A stretch of DNA of 64,000 nucleotides from Eubacterium sp. (GTDB taxonomy: Bacteria; Bacillota; Clostridia; Oscillospirales; Acutalibacteraceae): the NCBI GenBank assembly GCA_017446095.1, contig JAFSRN010000022.1, positions 20,343 to 84,342 of the forward strand, written 5' to 3'. Numbering within the stretch: position 1 is the stretch's first letter; the number at the start of each line of letters is the position of its first letter. Below, piece by piece: positions 50,794-62,787 of the stretch. The position numbers and the translations under genes are program-made. Below the pieces are notes generated by a model, which was given only the letters and a program-made list of their open reading frames with translations, was not told where the DNA came from and ran no database searches.

Positions 50794-52269
50794 TTAAAGA
50801 ATTATGCAGATTAATCCGCTGCAGCCCTCGTTAATTACACGCTCTATTGTTTCCCTGAACTTATCGCGCGCGTCCTGCGGCATACGGTACAGTTTATTGT
50901 TAAGTCCCTCGCTTACAAGCGAGTGCAAAGACTTGCCGAAAATGTTTGTGTTCCATATTTCCGCAGGGTTATTTTCAAACTCACCGAGCAGATACATAAC
51001 AAGTTCCTCGCTCTGCGATTCGCTGCCCACAATCGGCGCAACCTCCGTATAAGTGTTGCATTTAATCATATGGATAGACGGCGCCTGTGCTTTAAGACGA
51101 ACACCATATTTGCCGCCCTGCTTCATAATCTCGGGCTCTTCAAGCGAAAGTTCATCCATAACGGGCATCACGATACCGTAGCCTGTGCTGTTAACCTGTT
51201 CAAGCGCATCGGCAATGCGCTGATACTTCTCTTTAACCTGCGCAAGTGCAACAAATTCTCGAAGCAGCGCTTCCTCATCAGCAATCTCAACACCGCATTT
51301 TTCGCTCATTATCTCAAACAGATGCGCGTTGTCTACATCAATATTAACAACAACCTTGCCGTCCGACAAATCCGCGTCCGTAACCACCGACGAAATGATA
51401 TTCTCGTTTTGCCCGATGTTATACGCAAAACCTACTACCGAACGCATTGTTGATACGCTTGCGCACTCATCTTTTATCTGTGCGATGATTTCCCTGCGCA
51501 GTGAATCATCAGCCTCAAGCGAGCCGAACCAATTTGGAAGGTCAATGCCTATTGAGGTTACGGGGAATTCATACAGCACATTCTGCAGGATTTTCTTTAT
51601 ATCGTCTTCGCCGATTTCAAGGATGTTCAGCGGTATAACAGGCACATCGTACTTATCCGTCATCTGCACGGCAAGGTTTTTTACGTCCTGCGAATCGGGC
51701 GCGGTTGTGTTCATAAGTACTACAAACGGCTTGCCGAGTTCTTTAAGCTCGTTGATTACGCGTTCTTCCGCTTCCTCATATTCCTCGCGCGGTATCTGAC
51801 TTATTGAGCCGTCTGTTGTGACTACAAGTCCGATCGTTGAATGTTCTTCTATTACCTTTTTGGTGCCGATTTCCGCCGCCATATTAAACGGTATTTCTTC
51901 CTCATACCACGGCGTCATCACCATGCGCGGCTGTTCGTCCTCAATATAGCCTTCGCTGCTCGGTACTATGTAGCCAACGCAGTCAATCATGCGCACTTTA
52001 AGGCGCAGGTTATCCTGCATTGAAATTTCGATTGATTCCTCAGGTATGAACTTCGGCTCGGTTGTCATAATAGTTCTGCCTGCTGCAGACTGCGGCAGTT
52101 CGTCTTTTGCGCGCTCTTTCTGAAAGTCACCCTCAATATTTGGTATAACGAGCGTATCCATAAAACGCTTGATAAAGGTGGATTTGCCTGTGCGGACAGG
52201 TCCGACCACGCCTATGTAAATATCCCCTTGCGTGCGGGATGAAATGTCGGAATAAATATTATCAGTCAT
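50794..52269 (-). CDS. spoIVA: Stage IV sporulation protein A (coat morphogenetic ATPase)
   Basis: 491 residues. It polymerises on the outer forespore membrane to form the base of the spore coat, recruited by SpoVM. N-terminal Walker A is GPVRTGKSTFIKRFMD, with PQSAAGRTIMTTEPKF and DCVGYIVPS following. The C-terminus ends in a conserved hydrophobic segment (INEGCSGLICIIL). Lies 11 bases after the sipL-like gene; AAGGTGA ribosome-binding site. Confidence 0.97.
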   Translation of the reverse strand: MTDNIYSDISSRTQGDIYIGVVGPVRTGKSTFIKRFMDTLVIPNIEGDFQKERAKDELPQSAAGRTIMTTEPKFIPEESIEISMQDNLRLKVRMIDCVGYIVPSSEGYIEDEQPRMVMTPWYEEEIPFNMAAEIGTKKVIEEHSTIGLVVTTDGSISQIPREEYEEAEERVINELKELGKPFVVLMNTTAPDSQDVKNLAVQMTDKYDVPVIPLNILEIGEDDIKKILQNVLYEFPVTSIGIDLPNWFGSLEADDSLRREIIAQIKDECASVSTMRSVVGFAYNIGQNENIISSVVTDADLSDGKVVVNIDVDNAHLFEIMSEKCGVEIADEEALLREFVALAQVKEKYQRIADALEQVNSTGYGIVMPVMDELSLEEPEIMKQGGKYGVRLKAQAPSIHMIKCNTYTEVAPIVGSESQSEELVMYLLGEFENNPAEIWNTNIFGKSLHSLVSEGLNNKLYRMPQDARDKFRETIERVINEGCSGLICIIL

Positions 52270-52280
52270 TGTGTCACCTT

Positions 52281-53768
52281 CTATGCTCTTGGGATAATCA
52301 GTACTTTTGATGAGTCGAGAGTGTCGCTTTTCAGGGCATTTTCCTGAATAATCTTGCTTTCGTCAGACAAAAAGGATTTTGCAATATCCCATACTTTTTC
52401 ATTTTCTTTGGCAAAATAAACGGTAAGCGCGTGGTTATTCTTAATCTCGTCGCCGATCGTTATATCTGCCAGAACAGGAATTGTACTCACATTGAAGTAG
52501 TAAGCATTGATTTCAAGGTTAAGGCGCATGTCAATTCTGCCGTCGGCAGCCAGCGTATAGTCGTAATCGTCAATGCAAAGGCTAACTATCGCGTCATCAT
52601 ACTTTTCGGCAGGAATATCAACGTCAGCAGATGCGCTGACAGAACTTAATCCGCCGTCGTTGCTTACAATTGCAACCGCGTCAACAGTCGTATGAATCGC
52701 ACCTTTTTTATAATTTGGCGATTTAAGCTTAAGGCCGAGTTCCTTGATTTCCGTAATCTCGCCGTTCAGCATAAGCGGAACATCAACGAGTTTGCGCTCT
52801 GTGACAAATCTGCCGTCTGTGCTTGCAGTAAACTCTGTGTATTCTCCAGTGCTTTCCCTGCCTGCAGCGTAACCGTCGGTTACGAGTTCAGCCGTGTTTT
52901 CACGAATAACAGTAAGCCCTAACGCGATGTCGCCGAATATATTTATAACGGAAACCTTTTCGCCCGCCGTGCCTTTGATTTTGAAGAAAACCGAACCGAG
53001 CGCAACATCTGCAATAACAGTGTCATCATCCTCAAGTCCGCTTCTGTCAACAATCTTTGAAAGTGAAAACGAGTACGATGCCTTTTCTATGCCGCCGTCA
53101 TCGTCATCCGCGGTGTAAAGAATTGTGGTTTTAAGCTCGGCCTTGATGAGCATTTTGTCCTTGATTACCTTGACGTCAGTGACTGTGGGATAAGTTGACG
53201 AGCTAATTATCCTGCCGATTGCCGCAGCGTCCGACGGAAGCGTAACCTCTTCGTCAAAATCTATTTTATCAATGTACGACGCGGCAACATCTGAAGTGGC
53301 AACGCTGCGTGTTTTGAGCTTTGCCGAATCGAACGACTTAACTGTCGGGAACTTAACGCGGTCGTATACCGAGATGTTGAGCACGGACATTGTGCGAACA
53401 TCAATACGGCGCTGGTTAATCACTCTGAAGTTTGTGTACTTGTCGCAAATCACGGCGCGTACAAAAGATGACTCCGTGAGATTATCAAGCGTAAATACCT
53501 TTGAAAAATCCTCCTCAAAATCCGCAAAACACAGGCGGGATTTTTCGTTGTAATACGTAATCTGAATTGCACACTTGCCGTATATCTTAACCTCGTTAAA
53601 GCTGATATCCGCTGAAGTAACATAGCTGTTTGACGTGCATTTTACTACGCGGTAAATATCGTCAAGATAAGCCGGCAGGGATTCCTGATAATCCCCCTCT
53701 ATATCGATTACTTTTGTAAAGATTTTGCAATTCTTTTCCAAACATGAGTATTCTTTTTGCATATCCAT
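52281..53768 (-). CDS. sipL: SipL-like spore coat protein (SPOCS/DUF3794 and LysM)
   Basis: 495 residues from the ATG at 53766-53768 (AAAGGAG upstream); a longer frame adds 33 hydrophobic residues without a ribosome-binding site. Tandem SPOCS/DUF3794 domains fill most of the protein, with VTSADISFNEVKIYGKCAIQ in the first. The end is a LysM domain (YFAKENEKVWDIAKSFL). In C. difficile SipL binds SpoIVA through its LysM domain. Adjacency to spoIVA makes that role likely here. The symbol is assigned by domain layout and context. Confidence 0.88.
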   Translation of the reverse strand: MDMQKEYSCLEKNCKIFTKVIDIEGDYQESLPAYLDDIYRVVKCTSNSYVTSADISFNEVKIYGKCAIQITYYNEKSRLCFADFEEDFSKVFTLDNLTESSFVRAVICDKYTNFRVINQRRIDVRTMSVLNISVYDRVKFPTVKSFDSAKLKTRSVATSDVAASYIDKIDFDEEVTLPSDAAAIGRIISSSTYPTVTDVKVIKDKMLIKAELKTTILYTADDDDGGIEKASYSFSLSKIVDRSGLEDDDTVIADVALGSVFFKIKGTAGEKVSVINIFGDIALGLTVIRENTAELVTDGYAAGRESTGEYTEFTASTDGRFVTERKLVDVPLMLNGEITEIKELGLKLKSPNYKKGAIHTTVDAVAIVSNDGGLSSVSASADVDIPAEKYDDAIVSLCIDDYDYTLAADGRIDMRLNLEINAYYFNVSTIPVLADITIGDEIKNNHALTVYFAKENEKVWDIAKSFLSDESKIIQENALKSDTLDSSKVLIIPRA

Positions 53769-53795
53769 TGATTTTCTCCTTTCTGTTTCTATCAC

Positions 53796-53822
53796 ACTAT
53801 ATGCAGTAATTAAGGAATATAT
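53796..53822 (-). promoter_or_regulatory. Possible sigma-E-like promoter of sipL-spoIVA
   Basis: CATATAGT (53796-53803) resembles the sigma-E -10 CATACANT, and ATATATT (53816-53822) resembles its -35. The spacer of 12 bases is shorter than usual, so this is tentative. No sigma-A promoter is obvious here, and sipL and spoIVA are expected to be mother-cell genes. Confidence 0.3.
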
Positions 53823-54012
53823 AACTACAATTATTGGTGTATAAAACATTAATTTAATTATTTTCATTTATATAGAACACTTGCATACGCCACCGCGAAA
53901 AAGTTACAATTTGGTTACAAAATGCAAAAAAGTGTGATTTTAGGGTGCCTAAATGTGACTATTATATAGAGGGGTAAATAATCACAACCCTTTGAAAGGA
54001 GGTGCAGCACTG

Positions 54013-54540
54013 ATGAATCGTAACCGGAAAGCTACGGCGGACGCCGAATTCCAAAGGATTTACAAGGCGTATTACAGCTCGATTTACAAGTTTTGCTACT
54101 CAAAGCTACTTGACGACACTTCGGCTGTGGACGATATAATGCAGGAAGCATTTATCATCCTGTATAACCGACTTCTGAACGGCGAAGAGGTTGAATACGT
54201 TTACGCATTTATGCTGAAAACGGCGGACAACCTGATTCAGCAGCATTACCGAGAGCTGAAAAAGGCGAACCGAAACATAAGCCTTGATGAAATAATCAAG
54301 CTTCCTTCGCAAAACGACAGCCTTGATGAGCGAGTTGCATTTGAGCAGTACTCAAAAGAATTCAGTGCCGCACTGAGAGATGATGAAGCGGAACTGTTTT
54401 CCATGCGATACATAGAAGAATTAGAAATTAACGAGATAGCCGAGCTAACCGGAATGACTATTACAAACATTTCAACACGGCTGCACAGAATACGAGAAAA
54501 ATTAAGAAAACTCTACGGCGAGGATTTTAATTACAGATAA
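54013..54540 (+). CDS. ECF-type RNA polymerase sigma factor
   Basis: 175 residues from the ATG at 54013 (GAAAGGAGGTG upstream). Region 2 spans about residues 15-75 (FQRIYKAYYSSIYKF; DDIMQEAFIILYNRLL). Region 4 spans about 115-170 with the helix-turn-helix INEIAELTGMTITNISTRLHRIREKL. It lacks regions 1 and 3, as ECF factors do. First gene of a three-gene rightward unit, with the membrane LRR protein 32 bases downstream. Its own promoter is not evident; autoregulation is likely by analogy. Confidence 0.92.
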   Translation: MNRNRKATADAEFQRIYKAYYSSIYKFCYSKLLDDTSAVDDIMQEAFIILYNRLLNGEEVEYVYAFMLKTADNLIQQHYRELKKANRNISLDEIIKLPSQNDSLDERVAFEQYSKEFSAALRDDEAELFSMRYIEELEINEIAELTGMTITNISTRLHRIREKLRKLYGEDFNYR

Positions 54541-54572
54541 ACTCTTGTCCGCGTTTTCGGAAAGGAGATAAT

Positions 54573-56738
54573 ATGGCTCACATTGATATGAACACAAGAA
54601 TTATAGATAATATTAATAACGACAATATTGCCGCTGCGCTCAATTATATGATTGACAGCGAGCTTTCAAAAGATGTAAGCCAGATGAACACAGCTTTGAT
54701 TGACGAGTGTGTTAACGCTCTTCTTGAACTTGAAAGCGATAAGGATAATAACTTCGCATTGATGATTCCGATTATTTCGTCAAAGGAATACCTTAAGATG
54801 ATTCAGCCGAAGAAAGCTATAAATTGGAAAGATATAAACGTATTTACAAGAGCTGCGCTTATTGCTGCGCTGCTCGCGTCAACAACCCTGACGGTTAACG
54901 CCGCATACGAGGTAATTACAGGCAACAAGCTTTTGGATGATGTAAGCAACTCCCTGCACAGCAAGCTTGTAGATTGGGGCTTGATTGATGACGAAATGAG
55001 CGAAATTCTTCCTATTGATACCCCGCACATAAAAGAAGAACCTACTACTGTACAGGAAGCTGCTACCGATGACAGCGAGGAGGTAAAAACAGTCAGACTG
55101 AAAAAGCCTGTAGCTTCTAAAAATATTGAACAGTTTAACGGCGTTGACGACGACAACGAGGAAACGACTACGCATCACTATATTGAGCAGTTTAACGGTG
55201 ATGATGACGATGATGAGGAAACCACAACCAAGCCAGCTATTGAACAGTTTAACGGCGAGGATGACGACGATGAGGAAACTACAACACGTCGCAAGCCCGA
55301 ACCTACAACCGTTACACCCGCAGCAGAGCCCACAACGCATAGCGATGAGGAGGCTGTATTGATTTCGCTTGAAGCGGATTATGACGACTCCTTTAAGCTT
55401 GACTATGTATACGGCGAAGCGCTCTCCTACGACGGACTGACGCTAACTGCTAATTACAGCGACGGCTCAAGGAAAAATGTTGACATCAAGGATACAAATC
55501 ACACAGAGAGCGTTAATATGAACGTAACTGCCGACTACACGCTGCGCATAATTTACAAGACCTGCGTTGTGACAATCGACATTACGGTACGTCCTGACGA
55601 CGACACACGCGGTGCGCAGGTATGCGAGAACGAGCTTTACGACTATATGCTCACCAAGAAGGGCGTGTACATCACAAAATACAAGGGCGATGAAACTAAC
55701 ATTGACATTGACAAGCTTGACGGTGAGCCGGTATTTGCAATAGGCGCAGGCGTTTACAGCGGCAAGAACATTGAACACGTGACTGCTGAAAATGCTCAAA
55801 AGATTTTTGCAAACGCGTTTAAGGATTGCGTGAACCTTGAAACCTGCTACACGCCGAGGGCAAAATACATTGGCAATTCGGCGTTTGAAAATGACGTTAA
55901 GCTTAAGCACCCTGTATTCAGTAACGATTTGAGTTATCTCGGCACAGCGGTTTACAAAAACAGCGGCATAACGGAGATTTCGCTGACTGAAAACATCAGC
56001 GAAGTGCCTGATGAACTTTGTGAAAACTGTGCGGATTTGGCTAGTGTGAACCTCCTTGGTGCCGAAGCAGTCGGCAAATATGCATTTTCCGAATGCACCT
56101 CGCTTGTTCAGGTGAGCGGCACCGACGTTCTCACAAAAGCTGGCGACTTTGCGTTTTACAACTGCAAGAGTGCGGAGTTTACGGAAAAGCCTTCAAAGCT
56201 CACAGCAGCCGGCGACAACGCGTTTGCGTACTGCAACAACATTGACTTTGGCAAGCTTTATATAACAGAGGTTGCGCCTTATGGCTTCCTTTACTGCCAC
56301 AAGCTGACAAACGTTGAGATTGACGGCAGAGTAAGCGTTATTCCCGAGGGCGCGTTCAGAGGCTGCCATATTGACACACTTAAACTCAACGAGGGTGTGA
56401 GTGTGATTGACGACACGGCGTTTATGAGCATCAACATAACGGAAGTTCATCTGCCGTCAACGCTTGATAAGATCGGCACGTACGGTCTGTATTCAACCAG
56501 ACTGCGCGACCTGTACTGCCCGAGAGCGCTTAATTCAATCGGCAGTTCGGCGTTTTACAAAACCCGCCTTACAATGCACGTTTACAAAAACAGCTACGCC
56601 CACACATATGCATATGAAAATAATATAAAATATGTTATTATAGAAGACGGGCATGAAATCGTGCAGCTACAGGGCGAGGACGACGTTGACGACGAGACAC
56701 CCGGCGGAATTATCAACCTCAACGGCGAGGATGATTAG
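54573..56738 (+). CDS. Membrane-spanning LRR protein, candidate anti-sigma/sensor
   Basis: 721 residues. Residues 1-80 are cytoplasmic and helical with the motif ALIDECVNALLELE (41-54). One hydrophobic span is at about 91-110. Outside come three 19-residue repeats, IEQFNG followed by an acidic run and ETTT, starting at 185, 204 and 223. Next is a Big_3-like bacterial Ig domain (about 262-345, YDGLTLTANYSDGSRKNVDI), then LRR_5-type repeats (about 380-690). Two more QxxGEDD-type acidic motifs lie at the C-terminus. The layout (sigma gene, then single-pass protein with inside N-terminus) matches anti-sigma sensors. No known anti-sigma domain was recognised, so the role is inference. Confidence 0.8.
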   Translation: MAHIDMNTRIIDNINNDNIAAALNYMIDSELSKDVSQMNTALIDECVNALLELESDKDNNFALMIPIISSKEYLKMIQPKKAINWKDINVFTRAALIAALLASTTLTVNAAYEVITGNKLLDDVSNSLHSKLVDWGLIDDEMSEILPIDTPHIKEEPTTVQEAATDDSEEVKTVRLKKPVASKNIEQFNGVDDDNEETTTHHYIEQFNGDDDDDEETTTKPAIEQFNGEDDDDEETTTRRKPEPTTVTPAAEPTTHSDEEAVLISLEADYDDSFKLDYVYGEALSYDGLTLTANYSDGSRKNVDIKDTNHTESVNMNVTADYTLRIIYKTCVVTIDITVRPDDDTRGAQVCENELYDYMLTKKGVYITKYKGDETNIDIDKLDGEPVFAIGAGVYSGKNIEHVTAENAQKIFANAFKDCVNLETCYTPRAKYIGNSAFENDVKLKHPVFSNDLSYLGTAVYKNSGITEISLTENISEVPDELCENCADLASVNLLGAEAVGKYAFSECTSLVQVSGTDVLTKAGDFAFYNCKSAEFTEKPSKLTAAGDNAFAYCNNIDFGKLYITEVAPYGFLYCHKLTNVEIDGRVSVIPEGAFRGCHIDTLKLNEGVSVIDDTAFMSINITEVHLPSTLDKIGTYGLYSTRLRDLYCPRALNSIGSSAFYKTRLTMHVYKNSYAHTYAYENNIKYVIIEDGHEIVQLQGEDDVDDETPGGIINLNGEDD

Positions 56739-56752
56739 AAAGGAGTAAGATT

Positions 56753-59700
56753 ATGAAAACTAAAAGATTAATTTCGATACTGCTTTCAGTATTATTAATA
56801 ATGACGTCCTTCCCTGTTACCGTACTTGCTGACGATAACAACGACGATAGATTTACAAAAACGACTGAAGGATATATCATCTGCGACAATATTGAGGATC
56901 TGAATCTTACCGAGGACGACGACCTCGACGGACAAGTTAACATATATAATTTTGTTGGTGCAAACTGGTTTTATGAAGGCGAAACAAGAACGGTTAAATT
57001 TATGTATTATAACCGATCTCATCCTAACATTGCCGATACCACAAGTATTAACTGCTATAACAAAACTTGTATGCAGATAACGTATTTTCGCACGCTGTCG
57101 TTTGAAACGTGGGTTGAAGAGAATCCCGAATATTATGAGGATTATAAGAGCAACGGCTACACTGATGAAAGCATTTATGACGATGTATTTATGACCGTTT
57201 ACGATGAAGACGGAAATGAATACAGAGGCACATATGAATACTATCAGTTCCCGTTTTTTGACTCGGTGCAGAAGGTTATAATCGGCAACAACATATCAAA
57301 AATTGAGAGTCTGCCGTTAAATCTTTTGTTTAAAAACCTTAACTGCATTGAATTTGAGGAAAACTCAGTTCTGACGGAAATTGCCGAAATGTTTGGAGGC
57401 ACGGTTTATGCCGGAGAGGATCCAATTTCTGTTGCCGAGGTTACATTGCCCGCGTCAGTTACTAAAATTAGTGGTGGCTTTTCAGGTTCTAACTTTGTAT
57501 CGATAGACCTGAGCCAGACGCAGATAACGGAGATACCTGACTATGCGTTTTACAACACGGGTAATCTAACAGAACTCAAACTCAACGACAAGATTACAAC
57601 CATTGGCAGCTACGCGTTTAAAGAGAGTTCTATTAAATCAATTGAACTGCCATCAACGCTTAACACATTAGGAAACGGCGTATTCTACAATTCAAGTATT
57701 GAATCAATCGACCTTGAAAACACAGAGGTTCTTGATATTCCAAACAATGCATTTTACGGCGCAGAGATTAAAACAATCAAATTAAACCCGTGCACCGAAA
57801 CGATAGGAACATCTGCATTCAGATTATCCGCGTTAAAGGAAATTGATATACCGTGCTTCGTAAATGAAATCGGCGGAAGTGCTTTCCGCAGCACTACAGA
57901 CCTTGAGAGAGTTACAATTCATTGTAATGGCGACATAGATAACTTTGCATTCAGGGATTCGGGACTGAAACATCTCGATATGAGCGATAGCGATCCAACC
58001 CTCGGCAAGCAGGTATTCAGAGGCTGTAAGTTTGAAGAGGTACACTTGTCAAGCAATCCTTGTTTCAGTATTACCGGCGAAGGCACCTTCAGCTACTGCA
58101 CAATAAAAACGCTCGATATGCCAAGCGTGCAAACAATCGGCACTAATACATTTAGCAATTCGATAATAGAAAACGTGATTATTCCGGAAAACTGCGGTAA
58201 AATGAACGATTGCTTTAGCGGTGCAGACATTAATTATATCTGTATAAGGTCGCCGTATGTAAATATTTACACAACGGACTATTTTGCCAATATCAGCAAT
58301 CTCAAAACGATTGTTTATCTCAATACAAATAACTTTGGTCTGTCGAATGATTTCACGGGGCTTGAGGAATACAGCAAGTTTATGGATAAAAGCATTGCCA
58401 TTTACGGATACGCTGACACTCCGCTGTACAGGCACTGCCTTAAGAACGGCATCCCTTTCCACGAGATTACCGAGGAAAACGGCTATCCTCAGAACGCACA
58501 GGAATCTGCAGAGGAAAACAGTTTTGCTATAATCACCAACCCTGATGAAGAAGAGCCTGACGACGAGGAACCCGGCAACAATAATACATACCCGACGACA
58601 ATAGGCTTAAAAGGTACATATGAAGGCGGCAGATGGTCAGCAATCTGTGGACACAGCATAACCTTCAGCGGCAAAGGTGCTATTCAATCGAATATCATTA
58701 CCGATTCAAACGGCTATCAATACACTCTCGGCGAATATATAAACCTTGCAAATATTGAGCTTGTTTATATAAACGACGGTATTACCTCTATACCGGAAGA
58801 CTTTCTGTACATTGATGATGAAACAACGGCTGCTGTACAGCGAGTTGTGCTACCGAACGACCTTAAAACAATCGGCGACAACGCGTTCAGAAACACAAAT
58901 GTCAATGTAATAATCCCAAGAACGTACTGGTGCTACTATGAATCTTTACCGAATACTAATACCTTCCTTAACGCTCACAAATGCGTGCTGCCGGAAGGCG
59001 TTACATCCATCGGCAAGTATGCGTTTGCTGACACAAAGAACCTTACGGATATGATGGTTATTATGCCGAAGGATTTGCAGGTTATCAGCGAAGGTCTGTT
59101 CTACGGCAGCAACGTTAAAAGCGTTTACTTCCCGAGCAATAAGGCTACTGCGATTGAAAAGAAGGCTTTTGCTGCCTGCGATAACCTTGTAGGTCTTACA
59201 CTGCCGTTCACGATTGAGAGCGTTTACACCGACTATGTTGACGGCGAGGAAAATGTTACCGCTAATGCTTTTGGCTACCTGTCAACAGGCGGCAGGAACA
59301 CGCGGCTGACTGTGTCCTGCGCAAAGCTTGACGGCGCAGTTGCAGAGTATTGCAGCAACAATAACATCTCGTTAGTAATGAACAACGACTACAACGAGTG
59401 CGGCACGGTTAAAGCCGGTAATTCGGCAGGCTACTTTAATTGGTATTACTACGAATACAATAACAGCGTAACCTATGAATTTGTTCCGCGTGATCCAAAG
59501 ATCTACAAACAGGATAACAAGGAAGACGCAATTGCCAACTACTCGCTAATCACTAACGGCACTTTTGACAAAGCGGTTGTAACACAGAAAATTAACTGGT
59601 TTAAAGGCATTGAAGATTTACCCGACATAGGCGGCTCAGCCTACCCGACAACTAAAGAACTTAACGACGGTGACTTTAACGTCAAGAGAGTAAATGTAGG

Positions 59701-61837
59701 CAACGGTATCAGATTGATTTACGCATCGGGCGTGTTCTCAAAGTTCAACCCCGAGAGCATTAATCTGCCCGACACGATGCAGTATATGGACTACGAAATC
59801 TTTAGTAACTGCACAAGGCTTAAGTCAATTGCAATCCCCGACAGTGTATATGAAATTGGCTCTAAAATGTTTACAAACTGCAGCAGCCTTGAGTATGCTA
59901 AGCTCAGCGACAGCATTGACCACGTTCCGCCAAAGCTTTTTTACAACGTTAAATCGCTGCGATTTGTCGATATTGGCGAAAAGGTTGTCAGAATCGAAAG
60001 CCAGGCATTTTACAACTGCACAGCACTCGAGGAAATTGTTATTCCGAACAAGGTTGAGCAGATACAAAACGAAGCGTTTTACAACTGCATCAGCGCGCAG
60101 ACAATATCAATCGGCAAGAGTGTTACATGGCTCGGTGAGGACTCGTTCAAAAATTCTGTTTACTGCGAAAACATTACTATTAACAGCAACAGCATTATTA
60201 CGCAGGATATTGAAACCGCATTTAAAGACGTGGGCATTTATACTAACGGAATTACGCTGACTTATGGCTTTGGCGCGGAAAAGATAGACTTTAAGCTGGT
60301 TAAAAATCTTGATATTAAAAAGCTTGTAATCAGCAAGACCGTGCATAACATAAGGTATGTCAGGTACGTGCCAAACACACTCGAAACTATTGAAATTGAT
60401 GATGAGAATACTACATTCTATGTGCGTAGCGGCTGCCTTTACCAGGAAAACTGCCTGATACTCGCGCCCAGAACGTTAAGAACCGTAACTATTGACGAGG
60501 ACGCTACTGCGATTGGCACATACGCCTTTGCAGACAGCGCTATTACAAAAATTACGATTCCCGACAAGGTTTACTTCATCCACAATTACGCCTTTTTGAA
60601 CTGCGATCAGCTAAAGTCCGTTAAGCTCGGCGACGGAATAGGCGTTATCCAGGAAGGTGCATTTATGAACTGCAGGCAGCTTAGGCTTATGTTCTTCCCT
60701 GCCAACCTTTACCAGATCGGCGACTACGCCTTCAAGAATTGTGAAAGCCTCGCAAACGCAACGTTTGTGTTTGACAGCGAGAATTTTGCAACAGTTGGAG
60801 TTGAAGCGTTTAACGGCTGCAAATCGCTTAAATGTATTGTTCTTCCCGAAAACACAAAGCGCATAAAGGAACGTGCTTTTGCTAAATGCACAGGGCTTGA
60901 AGCAATTTACATCTGGAACGCCGATGTTTACGACAACGCAATTACAAAGCAGGCAGGATTTGAAATATATACAATTGCAGGCTCACCTGCTCACGCTTAT
61001 GCACGCACTAACGATATTACTGTTCACGCCTTTATGGATGAGGATGCATTCCTTGAGGAATGTGCAATTAAGCTTGATGAGCTTGCAGGATACATCGGCT
61101 ACTGCAACGGCGAACACGGCAACATTGAGTATCTGACTGTTTATGAAGCTGACTGCGAGCACGAAGGATATGCAGTAGGCGTTTGCGAATACTGCTGGGA
61201 GATTCTTGAAGAAGTCCACACGCCTGCAATCGGTCACGACAAAAAAGTTATTGCAGATGTTCCGCCTACCGCAACGACAAAAGGCTTCAAAATAGAAGAG
61301 TGTAAAAACTGCGGCGAAACGTACAAAACCGAATATGCACCCACGAGCGATGAGGTTCTGCACGAAACGCACACAATTAAAGGCAAAGTAACCGTTGCAA
61401 GGAACAAGAACGGCGACTTTACAAACTGCGGCGTGGTCGGCGCAAAGATTATGATTGATGACTCGGTTGCAGCAACAACAGATGATAACGGCGTGTTTGT
61501 GCTGACGCTCGACACAGGCACCTACGAAGCGGAAATCAAGTACGCCTACGGCTTTACACGTAAGATTTACATTATTGTTGAGGATGAGGATATAACGCTA
61601 AATCAGCCCATACCGATTATCGCCTGCGACTTCAACAAAGACGGAGTTATAAACAACGACGATATGAGACTGTTCTCAATGGTAATATCCTCAAAGAAGG
61701 ACGATGTGGCTTATCTGCGATATGTCGATCTTAACAACGACGGCTATATTAACGGCAAAGACCAGGCGTACATAAGAAGCTGTATTGACGCTCATAGCAA
61801 GAATTTTGAATACGAAACCATTATTATGCACAAGTAA
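56753..61837 (+). CDS. Very large secreted LRR protein with C-terminal dockerin
   Basis: 1694 residues. Signal peptide with likely cleavage after VLA (residue 27). Two long blocks of LRR_5/BspA repeats (consensus like LKSVKLGDGIGVIQEGAF) cover about 150-570 and 650-1430, separated by an acidic EEPDDEEPG linker. Around 1450-1520 are two CxxC-bearing modules (CEYCWEI and CKNCGE), and then a carboxypeptidase-regulatory-like domain. The last ~70 residues form a type I dockerin: calcium loops DFNKDGVINNDD and DLNNDGYINGKD. It should dock to a cohesin on a scaffold. No catalytic domain was seen. It follows the membrane LRR gene by 14 bases and is probably in the same operon. Confidence 0.88.
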   Translation: MKTKRLISILLSVLLIMTSFPVTVLADDNNDDRFTKTTEGYIICDNIEDLNLTEDDDLDGQVNIYNFVGANWFYEGETRTVKFMYYNRSHPNIADTTSINCYNKTCMQITYFRTLSFETWVEENPEYYEDYKSNGYTDESIYDDVFMTVYDEDGNEYRGTYEYYQFPFFDSVQKVIIGNNISKIESLPLNLLFKNLNCIEFEENSVLTEIAEMFGGTVYAGEDPISVAEVTLPASVTKISGGFSGSNFVSIDLSQTQITEIPDYAFYNTGNLTELKLNDKITTIGSYAFKESSIKSIELPSTLNTLGNGVFYNSSIESIDLENTEVLDIPNNAFYGAEIKTIKLNPCTETIGTSAFRLSALKEIDIPCFVNEIGGSAFRSTTDLERVTIHCNGDIDNFAFRDSGLKHLDMSDSDPTLGKQVFRGCKFEEVHLSSNPCFSITGEGTFSYCTIKTLDMPSVQTIGTNTFSNSIIENVIIPENCGKMNDCFSGADINYICIRSPYVNIYTTDYFANISNLKTIVYLNTNNFGLSNDFTGLEEYSKFMDKSIAIYGYADTPLYRHCLKNGIPFHEITEENGYPQNAQESAEENSFAIITNPDEEEPDDEEPGNNNTYPTTIGLKGTYEGGRWSAICGHSITFSGKGAIQSNIITDSNGYQYTLGEYINLANIELVYINDGITSIPEDFLYIDDETTAAVQRVVLPNDLKTIGDNAFRNTNVNVIIPRTYWCYYESLPNTNTFLNAHKCVLPEGVTSIGKYAFADTKNLTDMMVIMPKDLQVISEGLFYGSNVKSVYFPSNKATAIEKKAFAACDNLVGLTLPFTIESVYTDYVDGEENVTANAFGYLSTGGRNTRLTVSCAKLDGAVAEYCSNNNISLVMNNDYNECGTVKAGNSAGYFNWYYYEYNNSVTYEFVPRDPKIYKQDNKEDAIANYSLITNGTFDKAVVTQKINWFKGIEDLPDIGGSAYPTTKELNDGDFNVKRVNVGNGIRLIYASGVFSKFNPESINLPDTMQYMDYEIFSNCTRLKSIAIPDSVYEIGSKMFTNCSSLEYAKLSDSIDHVPPKLFYNVKSLRFVDIGEKVVRIESQAFYNCTALEEIVIPNKVEQIQNEAFYNCISAQTISIGKSVTWLGEDSFKNSVYCENITINSNSIITQDIETAFKDVGIYTNGITLTYGFGAEKIDFKLVKNLDIKKLVISKTVHNIRYVRYVPNTLETIEIDDENTTFYVRSGCLYQENCLILAPRTLRTVTIDEDATAIGTYAFADSAITKITIPDKVYFIHNYAFLNCDQLKSVKLGDGIGVIQEGAFMNCRQLRLMFFPANLYQIGDYAFKNCESLANATFVFDSENFATVGVEAFNGCKSLKCIVLPENTKRIKERAFAKCTGLEAIYIWNADVYDNAITKQAGFEIYTIAGSPAHAYARTNDITVHAFMDEDAFLEECAIKLDELAGYIGYCNGEHGNIEYLTVYEADCEHEGYAVGVCEYCWEILEEVHTPAIGHDKKVIADVPPTATTKGFKIEECKNCGETYKTEYAPTSDEVLHETHTIKGKVTVARNKNGDFTNCGVVGAKIMIDDSVAATTDDNGVFVLTLDTGTYEAEIKYAYGFTRKIYIIVEDEDITLNQPIPIIACDFNKDGVINNDDMRLFSMVISSKKDDVAYLRYVDLNNDGYINGKDQAYIRSCIDAHSKNFEYETIIMHK

Positions 61838-61892
61838 TCTTTCAGGATAATCTCTGAACCTGATTAGATAAATGGAAAGGCTAAAATCAAGG

Positions 61893-61925
61893 AAAACCGT
61901 CGAGTAAAATCGGCGGTTTTTCTTA
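61893..61925 (+). terminator. Terminator of the sigma/LRR/dockerin unit
   Basis: 11-bp stem AAAACCGTCGA/TCGGCGGTTTT (one G-T pair) at 61893-61903 with 61910-61920, then TTTTTCTT. Confidence 0.88.
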
Positions 61926-61934
61926 CGAAAAGTA

Positions 61935-61963
61935 TTGACTTGATGTGTAAATAATGGTATTAT
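61935..61963 (+). promoter_or_regulatory. Promoter of the CAT tRNA
   Basis: TTGACT (61935-61940) and TATTAT (61958-61963), 17-base spacer, 17 bases before the tRNA 5' end. Confidence 0.82.
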
Positions 61964-61980
61964 ATTTGCGCTGGGTTTGA

Positions 61981-62057
61981 GGGCCATTAGCTCAGTTGGT
62001 TAGAGCCACCGGCTCATAACCGGTCGGTCCGGGGTTCGAGTCCCTGATGGCCCACCA
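61981..62057 (+). tRNA. tRNA with CAT anticodon (tRNA-Ile2 or elongator tRNA-Met)
   Basis: 77 nucleotides with encoded CCA; acceptor GGGCCAT/ATGGCCC pairs perfectly. The anticodon loop is GGCTCATAACC. That loop context is closer to the lysidine-modified Ile2 tRNA of Bacillus than to its elongator Met tRNA, which has GGTTCATACCC. Identity stays open without tilS recognition analysis. It is not initiator tRNA, since the anticodon stem lacks the three G-C pairs. Confidence 0.9.
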
Positions 62058-62060
62058 AAA

Positions 62061-62096
62061 AAGCAAGTACGCTAAAACGTACTTGCTTTTATTTTT
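62061..62096 (+). terminator. Terminator after the CAT tRNA
   Basis: Perfect 11-bp stem (62061-62071 with 62078-62088), followed by TTATTTTTA. On the minus strand, the T-run TTTTTTGG also makes it a plausible end for the converging membrane protein gene. Confidence 0.88.
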
Positions 62097-62787
62097 ACAT
62101 AAACATAATTGATGCGGCGATGAGGTACTGACCTGCGTAATATGTCAGGTGGTTTGTAAAGAAATAAAATGGCTTTTCTTTACCTCTGCCAAAGAATGTG
62201 CCGGACAGAATTGCATCAGACAGCGTGAACAGAATAAGACCGATTGCAAGAACCGTGTAGCCTGCAAGGAACTTGGTGTAAATCGCTGATGCGATGGCAA
62301 GCAGCATTGACAGCGCGAGCACCGATGTGTAGATGAATACAATCGTTCTGTACGCGCCATAATGCACTTTCATTATCTTTGCTGACGCGATTATCAGATA
62401 GCCGAAAAGCAGCGCCCCAGCAGCGCACAGAAGGATTATCCACCACTTCAGCCGCAGCGAATAGATTGTTGCCGATGAATAAAACAGGTGCCCTACTAAA
62501 AAGAATATAAAGCCGCCTTTGAGGTAGGCGCTCTCGTCCTTACGGTATATACCTTTCAGGTCAAGAAGTATGTCGCCAACAAGTCCGAGCGCGCCGCCGA
62601 AGATAATCAGCGAACCGTAAACAGATGCTTTGGGATTGGAAATAACCGCAAAAACAGCAGTCAGCAAATAACAAAGGCTCGAAATGGATTTGAGCATTAA
62701 GTTCCTGATGCTGAAGCCTTTTGCGCGGCTGATGCAGAATATCAGGGACATAACGCAACCAAGCGGTAATACGATATAATATGCCAT
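62095..62787 (-). CDS. YhhN/TMEM86 family membrane protein, lysoplasmalogenase-like
   Basis: 230 residues with about eight hydrophobic segments. The GLVGDILLDLKG motif and FLVGHLFYSSATIY near the middle carry the conserved Asp residues of the family. A second pair, LSDAILSG, is close to the C-terminus. Human TMEM86B hydrolyses lysoplasmalogens; activity in bacteria is less clear. Plasmalogens are common in anaerobic Clostridia, which fits. AAGGAG ribosome-binding site and its own promoter. Confidence 0.85.
   Translation of the reverse strand: MAYYIVLPLGCVMSLIFCISRAKGFSIRNLMLKSISSLCYLLTAVFAVISNPKASVYGSLIIFGGALGLVGDILLDLKGIYRKDESAYLKGGFIFFLVGHLFYSSATIYSLRLKWWIILLCAAGALLFGYLIIASAKIMKVHYGAYRTIVFIYTSVLALSMLLAIASAIYTKFLAGYTVLAIGLILFTLSDAILSGTFFGRGKEKPFYFFTNHLTYYAGQYLIAASIMFM

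Follow-up and report, generated by a model that had tools for sequence, protein, structure and literature searches.

Three adjacent genes in a stretch of 64,000 nucleotides (nt) from the genome of a Eubacterium sp., a relative of gut Clostridia (assembly GCA_017446095.1, contig JAFSRN010000022.1; the whole stretch is termed the window) encode a sigma factor of the extracytoplasmic function (ECF) type, a single-span membrane protein and a giant secreted protein built of leucine-rich repeats (LRRs). The genes likely form a self-regulating switch, in which the ECF sigma factor and an anti-sigma factor control surface LRR proteins. The evidence centres on a helical hairpin at the N-terminus of the membrane protein, which recurs directly behind ECF sigma genes in related genomes. 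A first-pass annotation, made from the sequence alone, had placed all three open reading frames (ORFs) on the + strand in this order, and their coordinates are confirmed.

54013..54540, + strand: ECF sigma factor gene, 175 aa
54573..56738, + strand: putative anti-sigma factor and sensor, anchored in the membrane, 721 aa
56753..61837, + strand: secreted giant LRR protein, predicted effector, 1694 aa (LRR_5, E 1e-128)

The first protein is assigned to the ECF type as a short protein of 175 aa with only sigma regions 2 and 4. Sigma70_r2, Sigma70_r4, Sigma70_r4_2 and Sigma70_ECF all exceed the curated Pfam cut-offs, and TIGR02937 scores 71.4 bits against a cut-off of 42.9 (among the best 25 of 73 NCBIfam rows). 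An alternative start for the sigma ORF, a TTG, lies at 53992. Other ECF-type genes of the same genome (C19:65584 and C3:29785) adjoin different single-span neighbours.

The membrane protein and its N-terminal hairpin

The membrane protein matches LRR_5 (E 4.9e-49) and Big_3 over the curated Pfam cut-offs and contains one hydrophobic segment, at about residues 90–108. Residues 71–90 hold five K/R and two D/E, and residues 111–140 two K/R and six D/E; this excess of basic residues on one side and acidic residues on the other fits a topology with the N-terminus inside the cell. A structural model of the full-length protein (6 rows; mean predicted local distance difference test score, pLDDT, 73.5) has an N-terminus that is helical at low to middling confidence, disorder at 141–258, an immunoglobulin (Ig)-like strand domain at about 262–340 and LRRs at about 349–690. 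The parts of the protein are as follows.

54618..54737, + strand: putative anti-sigma domain, a helical hairpin of residues 16–55 (AlphaFold model, conservation)
54840..54896, + strand: transmembrane segment, residues ~90–108 (hydropathy; helix in the model)
54894..54902, + strand: candidate signal-peptidase-like site V-N-A, residues 108–110 (picked by eye, by analogy with RsiV)
54930..54974, + strand: juxtamembrane amphipathic helix, residues ~120–134 (sequence and both models)
54993..55346, + strand: acidic linker, disordered, in which IEQFNGxDDD is repeated three times (pLDDT <50)
55356..55592, + strand: Ig-like domain, Big_3 (Pfam and model)
55617..56642, + strand: sensor BspA-type LRR ectodomain (LRR_5; in Foldseek, LRR surface proteins such as 4fd0 and 4fs7 match best)

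The short linker repeat (IEQFNGxDDD or IEDMNVGFDDD) is found in the window and at two further loci, L013 and L014, in sensors with and without LRRs; the linker is otherwise variable.

The first-pass annotation had singled out a motif near the N-terminus, ALIDECVNALLELE, as a possible new sigma-binding element; it forms helix 2 of a hairpin that is conserved. In an AlphaFold model of the N-terminus built from 52 rows, helices occupy residues 16–31 and 40–55, with pLDDT of 70–94 over the block; the rest of that model is uncertain (mean pLDDT 63.6, predicted TM-score 0.41), and the pLDDT of the hairpin is lower in the full-length model. Residues E30 and K33 are conserved in at least 90% of the 52 rows.

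A profile was built from nine N-termini and used to search 398 genomes of the same family, with at most 10 candidates per genome scored. It matches at least 89 places in 49 of these genomes: 79 ORFs longer than 110 aa, nine short ORFs of 65–110 aa that lack a span, and one place without an ORF. A hydrophobic span starts at residues 60–140 in 78 of the 79 longer ORFs, and 76 of the 79, the one in the window included, directly follow an ECF sigma gene of the same strand; nine of these 76 loci had built the profile. The recurrence of the motif beside other ECF genes, which the annotation had proposed as a check, is thus borne out. The chance rate of an ECF neighbour is estimated at well under one gene in a hundred, because Sigma70_r2 occurs at 11 places in the 2.09 Mb of the window's own genome. 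That genome carries three membrane-bound copies of the hairpin, each after an ECF gene and before an LRR gene. Judged by gene neighbourhood, the hairpin behaves like a sigma-binding element, and the putative anti-sigma domain looks undescribed so far.

The 76 loci fall into two branches when split at a sigma profile score of 130, a value set after seeing the data: 29 are of the window type (nine of the 29 built the profiles) and 47 are others. In the second branch of 47 loci (e.g. L065, L067 and L080), a sigma gene is followed by a hairpin protein, in some cases with DUF4367, and then mostly by a gene for a small protein whose N-terminus is signal-like, as judged by reading. This branch shares with the window the N-terminal profile match, the upstream ECF gene and the single span, and differs in its smaller ectodomains and in the nature of the next gene.

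Beyond the family, the profile matches in 44 of 291 genomes searched across the class and in 67 of 295 across the order. Many of the weaker matches are confined to the span part (profile positions ~60–140), so no claim on wider spread is made, apart from several order-level matches that do reach the hairpin, e.g. G601:C76 and G563:C31. The nine free-standing copies of 65–110 aa without a span include one in the window's own genome (L010 7392–7640, on contig C19), placed after a sigma/sensor/LRR operon, which might act as a soluble feedback anti-sigma factor, or brake. PMC8103513 distinguishes three classes of anti-sigma domain and describes soluble anti-sigma factors as having arisen by truncation of membrane-bound ones, an account that the nine short copies fit.

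Several observations weigh against the hairpin as an anti-sigma domain. Its contact with the sigma factor is one that we infer; what supports the earlier proposal of a new sigma-binding element is gene neighbourhood, together with the lack of a Pfam match. The nine N-termini have no significant match in Pfam, only single-member matches at E 0.019–0.083 (one of them to DUF4179, at 0.054); a Foldseek search with the N-terminal model gave 41 matches up to E 10, all of them above 0.001; and a profile search of the PDB gave 12 matches up to E 10, the best at 0.03 and none an anti-sigma factor. Among 29 relatives, three match DUF4179 (best E 0.0014) and one matches Sigma_reg_N (E 0.0081); the window protein matches neither. 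Three of the 79 longer ORFs lack a sigma neighbour (G008:C62, G379:C91 and G021:C30), the last of which matches the profile in its span part only. Finally, of 751 genes in the stretches examined, sigma and hairpin genes excepted, one stands directly behind an ECF sigma gene, a control that is biased low since the place behind sigma is already occupied by the hairpin gene in these stretches.

These points bear on an alternative in which the membrane protein is a co-expressed surface protein that does not bind sigma, the sigma factor being controlled in another way, such as by transcription alone. In its favour are the lack of direct evidence of contact, a hairpin that neither fold nor profile searches linked to a known anti-sigma domain, and a window ectodomain that resembles an ordinary surface LRR protein. 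Against this, the part that recurs beside the sigma gene is the cytoplasmic N-terminus, while ectodomains vary (Big_3, Big_3 with LRRs, Flg_new repeats, DUF4367), and we regard the alternative as unlikely.

Predicted promoter, transcription unit and possible regulon

The three genes are separated by gaps of 32 nt (sigma to sensor) and 14 nt (sensor to LRR gene), with purine-rich ribosome-binding sites visible, and are flanked by two predicted signals.

53933..53965, + strand: predicted operon promoter, TGTGATTTT-N14-TGACTATTAT (two-block motif from 29 sigma loci, with a near-copy before another LRR gene of the same genome)
61889..61924, + strand: predicted intrinsic operon terminator (hairpin of -21.3 kcal/mol, z -5.98, T-rich 3′ side)

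That the genes form one operon, as had been supposed, agrees with the short gaps, the strong terminator after the third gene and a likely sigma-specific promoter, all of them read from sequence. The transcription unit is likely wider than the annotation gave, and runs from the predicted promoter at 53933 to the end of the terminator at 61924. The hairpin at 61889–61924 is absent from the listing of a terminator scan, which instead gave 62059–62090; this was rejected as the operon terminator, as a tRNA-Met gene (61981–62057) lies in between. The tRNA-Met gene stands directly behind the operon, with 62059–62090 as its own terminator-like hairpin, and Rfam at gathering thresholds found nothing but a tRNA in 53600–62200. 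Counting against a single unit, sigma-70-like matches are common in the region (35, versus 16.8 in shuffles) and some lie just ahead of the third gene, so that a second promoter and separate transcription of the giant LRR gene are conceivable.

The predicted promoter derives from a two-block motif upstream of the 29 window-type sigma genes: TGTtAnATT, then tGACTACaTa 12–14 nt on. The motif likelihood over the 29 loci is 209, versus 64–68 in five shuffles; the shuffles are few, were given 12 restarts versus 40 and 30 in the real runs, and in the final run were made of 2-base blocks. A first run of expectation maximization on 23 loci (likelihood 142, versus 68–84 in six shuffles) had placed the window site at GTTACAATT, 78 nt ahead of the ATG, a site that was dropped after the sigma starts were re-anchored. 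The re-anchored run moves it to 53933–53965, in agreement with the orthologous locus L072 (spacing read by eye). Elsewhere in the 29-locus run, the site on contig C10 was judged misplaced and a better one was taken from two other promoter runs, and the site at L013 lies 172 nt from its anchor, far for a promoter. The same search on the 47 other loci yields a different motif with ambiguous sites (likelihood 132, versus 66–78 in shuffles).

Within the window's own genome, a pattern made from three sites finds those three, by construction, together with two on C10 and one on contig C22, with one match in the control. Both additional C10 sites are near-copies of the promoter of the C10 sigma gene and follow closely after that operon, one before ORFs of 77 and 236 aa, the other before an ORF of 239 aa and a pair of proteins of 452–453 aa. 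The two proteins of this pair (L011 13371–16102) resemble each other and are encoded in tandem; both N-termini are signal-like, and the first protein also has a marginal CAP domain.

With up to three mismatches, the window promoter is found in its genome at its own position and at two others, with three matches in the control. One of these two, a near-copy on contig C2, matches the window region at 31 of 42 bases with equal spacing; 29 nt after its end begins the gene for an LRR_5 protein of 489 aa, the N-terminus of which is signal-like. A match of this kind would be expected by chance about 0.01 times per genome under an independence model with 0.29 per base. It is a weakness of the case that the mismatch counts are uninformative, so that the C2 copy rests on its position and spacer identity; on these grounds, the window sigma factor probably also drives this second secreted LRR protein.

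The giant LRR protein and the putative sensors

LRR_5, LRR_8 and Dockerin_1 exceed the curated Pfam cut-offs in the 1694-aa protein, which has a signal-like N-terminus. Among the surface proteins of gut bacteria, those with BspA-type LRRs form a large family; taking LRR_5 over the cut-off as the mark of the type, both the effector and the sensor belong to it, and the closest solved structures are LRR surface proteins. The window's genome contains 31 ORFs over the LRR_5 cut-off (after grouping of the rows). The dockerin match is near its threshold.

61628..61768, + strand: dockerin-like segment, marginal (Dockerin_1, 23.2 bits against a cut-off of 22.9)

Five places in the genome match a dockerin, of which three are over the cut-off, and no cohesin (PF00963) was found in it, the assembly being 96.99% complete. 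Since no cohesin was detected, a role in a cellulosome is unlikely, and membership was rejected given the marginal dockerin and the missing partner.

The link between the window-type switch and LRR proteins recurs. A readable next gene (same strand, within 700 nt, no opposite gene between) is present at 26 of the 29 window-type loci and carries LRR_5 at 22 of these 26; at L063 the second gene carries it instead, giving 23 of the 29 in all. On the other side of the balance, no LRR gene is seen downstream within readable DNA at six of the 29: L014 and L016 have no close same-strand gene, L045 meets the contig end, and L052, L066 and L078 are followed by other genes. A stricter repeat count likewise finds an LRR gene within 2.5 kb at only 17 of the 29. 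The background is eight of 796 other genes, three of the eight being sensors, at this stricter count rather than the Pfam count applied to the effectors.

The sensors differ in their ectodomains. Across 29 full proteins drawn from both branches, ectodomains match Big_3 in 14, DUF4367 in four and LRR_5 in one, the window protein; further sensors carry Flg_new repeats (L014, L052), Big_3 (L016) or LRR_5 with Big_3 (L053). Six LRR-bearing sensors were aligned. Among the 29 window-type sensors, LRRs are found in four (the window, L013, L015 and L053), and the LRR region of the sensor therefore looks like an accessory of one clade. A search for records with a window-like sensor gave six loci, two of which match the LRRs only; the remaining four are from Eubacterium sp. 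RGIG3451 (goat rumen, L072), Clostridium sp. NALB_7961_35 (L073), Oscillospiraceae bacterium SIG609 (L074) and Clostridium sp. CAG:217 (L075).

The first-pass annotation had suggested that the sensor and effector LRRs read the same ligand or each other, a proposal that is compatible with the switch. Both the sensor and the next protein carry LRR_5 in the window and its closest relatives. No special kinship between the two was found, however: five other effectors outscore the window's own one in comparison with the window sensor's LRR, and the own effector is the best of 11 for one of six sensors, in a rough test whose effectors differ in length. The rarity of LRRs in window-type sensors, set beside their frequency in the next genes, also argues against special matching, and such pairing seems improbable.

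The proposed switch, known systems and neighbouring genes

If the hairpin is an anti-sigma domain, the switch can be outlined in steps. In the resting state, the cytoplasmic hairpin (residues ~16–55) would bind and silence the sigma factor encoded upstream, while the Ig and LRR ectodomain would sense a cue outside the cell. By analogy with RsiV, the amphipathic helix beside the span may come off the membrane when the cue binds, which would uncover the signal-peptidase-like site where the span ends. A protease of the RseP type, as for RsiV of B. subtilis, would then cut within the membrane and free the sigma factor; M50 proteases are encoded at three places in the genome (best E 3.7e-57). Freed sigma would transcribe its own operon from the two-block promoter, yielding more sigma factor, anti-sigma factor and giant LRR protein, and would probably switch on a further secreted LRR protein encoded away from the operon, as the promoter sequences suggest.

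Among the closest known systems is SigV–RsiV of B. subtilis (DUF4179, ECF30), likewise an ECF sigma factor paired with a single-span protein. In RsiV a cleavage site and amphipathic helices follow the span; the window protein has a candidate site and a modelled amphipathic helix there. Amphipathic helices just outside the RsiV span block signal peptidase until lysozyme binds, according to PMC6066255. PMC8844934 reports site-1 cleavage of RsiP by signal peptidase and describes RsiP as lacking such a helix. The window's switch differs from SigV–RsiV in a hairpin without DUF4179 or any significant Pfam match, in an ectodomain of Ig and LRR type and in a neighbouring gene for a surface LRR protein.

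Some regulators of the FecR type are needed for the activity of their sigma factor. By the same token, the hairpin could bind sigma and be required for its activity rather than act as a simple inhibitor, and adjacency and co-transcription fit either sign. The amphipathic helix beside a small-residue, cleavage-like site is instead the layout of an inhibitor, RsiV, as described in PMC6066255, and an activating role is therefore given little weight.

Likeness to SigI–RsgI of Clostridium thermocellum, on which the annotation had drawn, extends to the general plan: a sigma gene followed by one for a single-span protein, a sigma-binding part inside and a sensor outside, control of extracellular proteins, and a dockerin nearby. 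The details differ, and the analogy holds for layout only. The window sigma factor is of the ECF type; RsgI_N is not matched by the nine N-termini (E 0.1) or by 29 proteins (E 0.01); and the window sensor contains no carbohydrate-binding family at E 0.1, only Big_3 and LRR_5, in a genome without detected cohesin. Membership of the polysaccharide-sensing SigI/RsgI family was thus rejected, as the sigma factor is ECF, RsgI_N is unmatched and the ectodomain shows no carbohydrate-binding or enzymatic domain at E 0.1; we consider it very improbable.

Class II anti-sigma domains consist of about two helices. The window hairpin resembles CnrY and NepR as a short helical element, with no sequence or fold match to them in general searches and no direct comparison made. 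PMC8103513 describes this class, which includes CnrY and NepR, as a short helical element that embraces the ECF sigma factor.

A broader proposal is that ECF switches marked by the unnamed hairpin domain make up a large family of their own within one family of Clostridia, with a window branch dedicated to BspA-type LRR proteins, promoter variants specific to each paralogue, exchangeable sensors (Ig, Ig–LRR, Flg_new) and soluble copies in places. We put this forward tentatively, with the balance falling a little short of even. Open-licence literature in PubMed Central yielded no BspA protein under an anti-sigma switch, nothing on sigma factors turning on the genes of such proteins, and no title or start of abstract there on the sigma/sensor/LRR arrangement, which may be described elsewhere. 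The recurrence of similar switches with a shared promoter type in relatives suggests that surface proteins are controlled in a manner not yet described. If this is true, gut bacteria would choose among surface LRR proteins by parallel sigma switches, each responding to one cue; some BspA-type LRR proteins would gain a testable promoter and regulator, profile libraries a new anti-sigma domain, and a reporter assay would offer a route to what a surface LRR protein responds to.

Upstream of the sigma operon and divergent from it, the minus strand carries spoIVA beside a gene for a SipL-type SPOCS/LysM protein (50794–53867). The L072 locus keeps the neighbourhood of the window, upstream genes included, and the order of spoIVA and the SPOCS/LysM gene recurs there.

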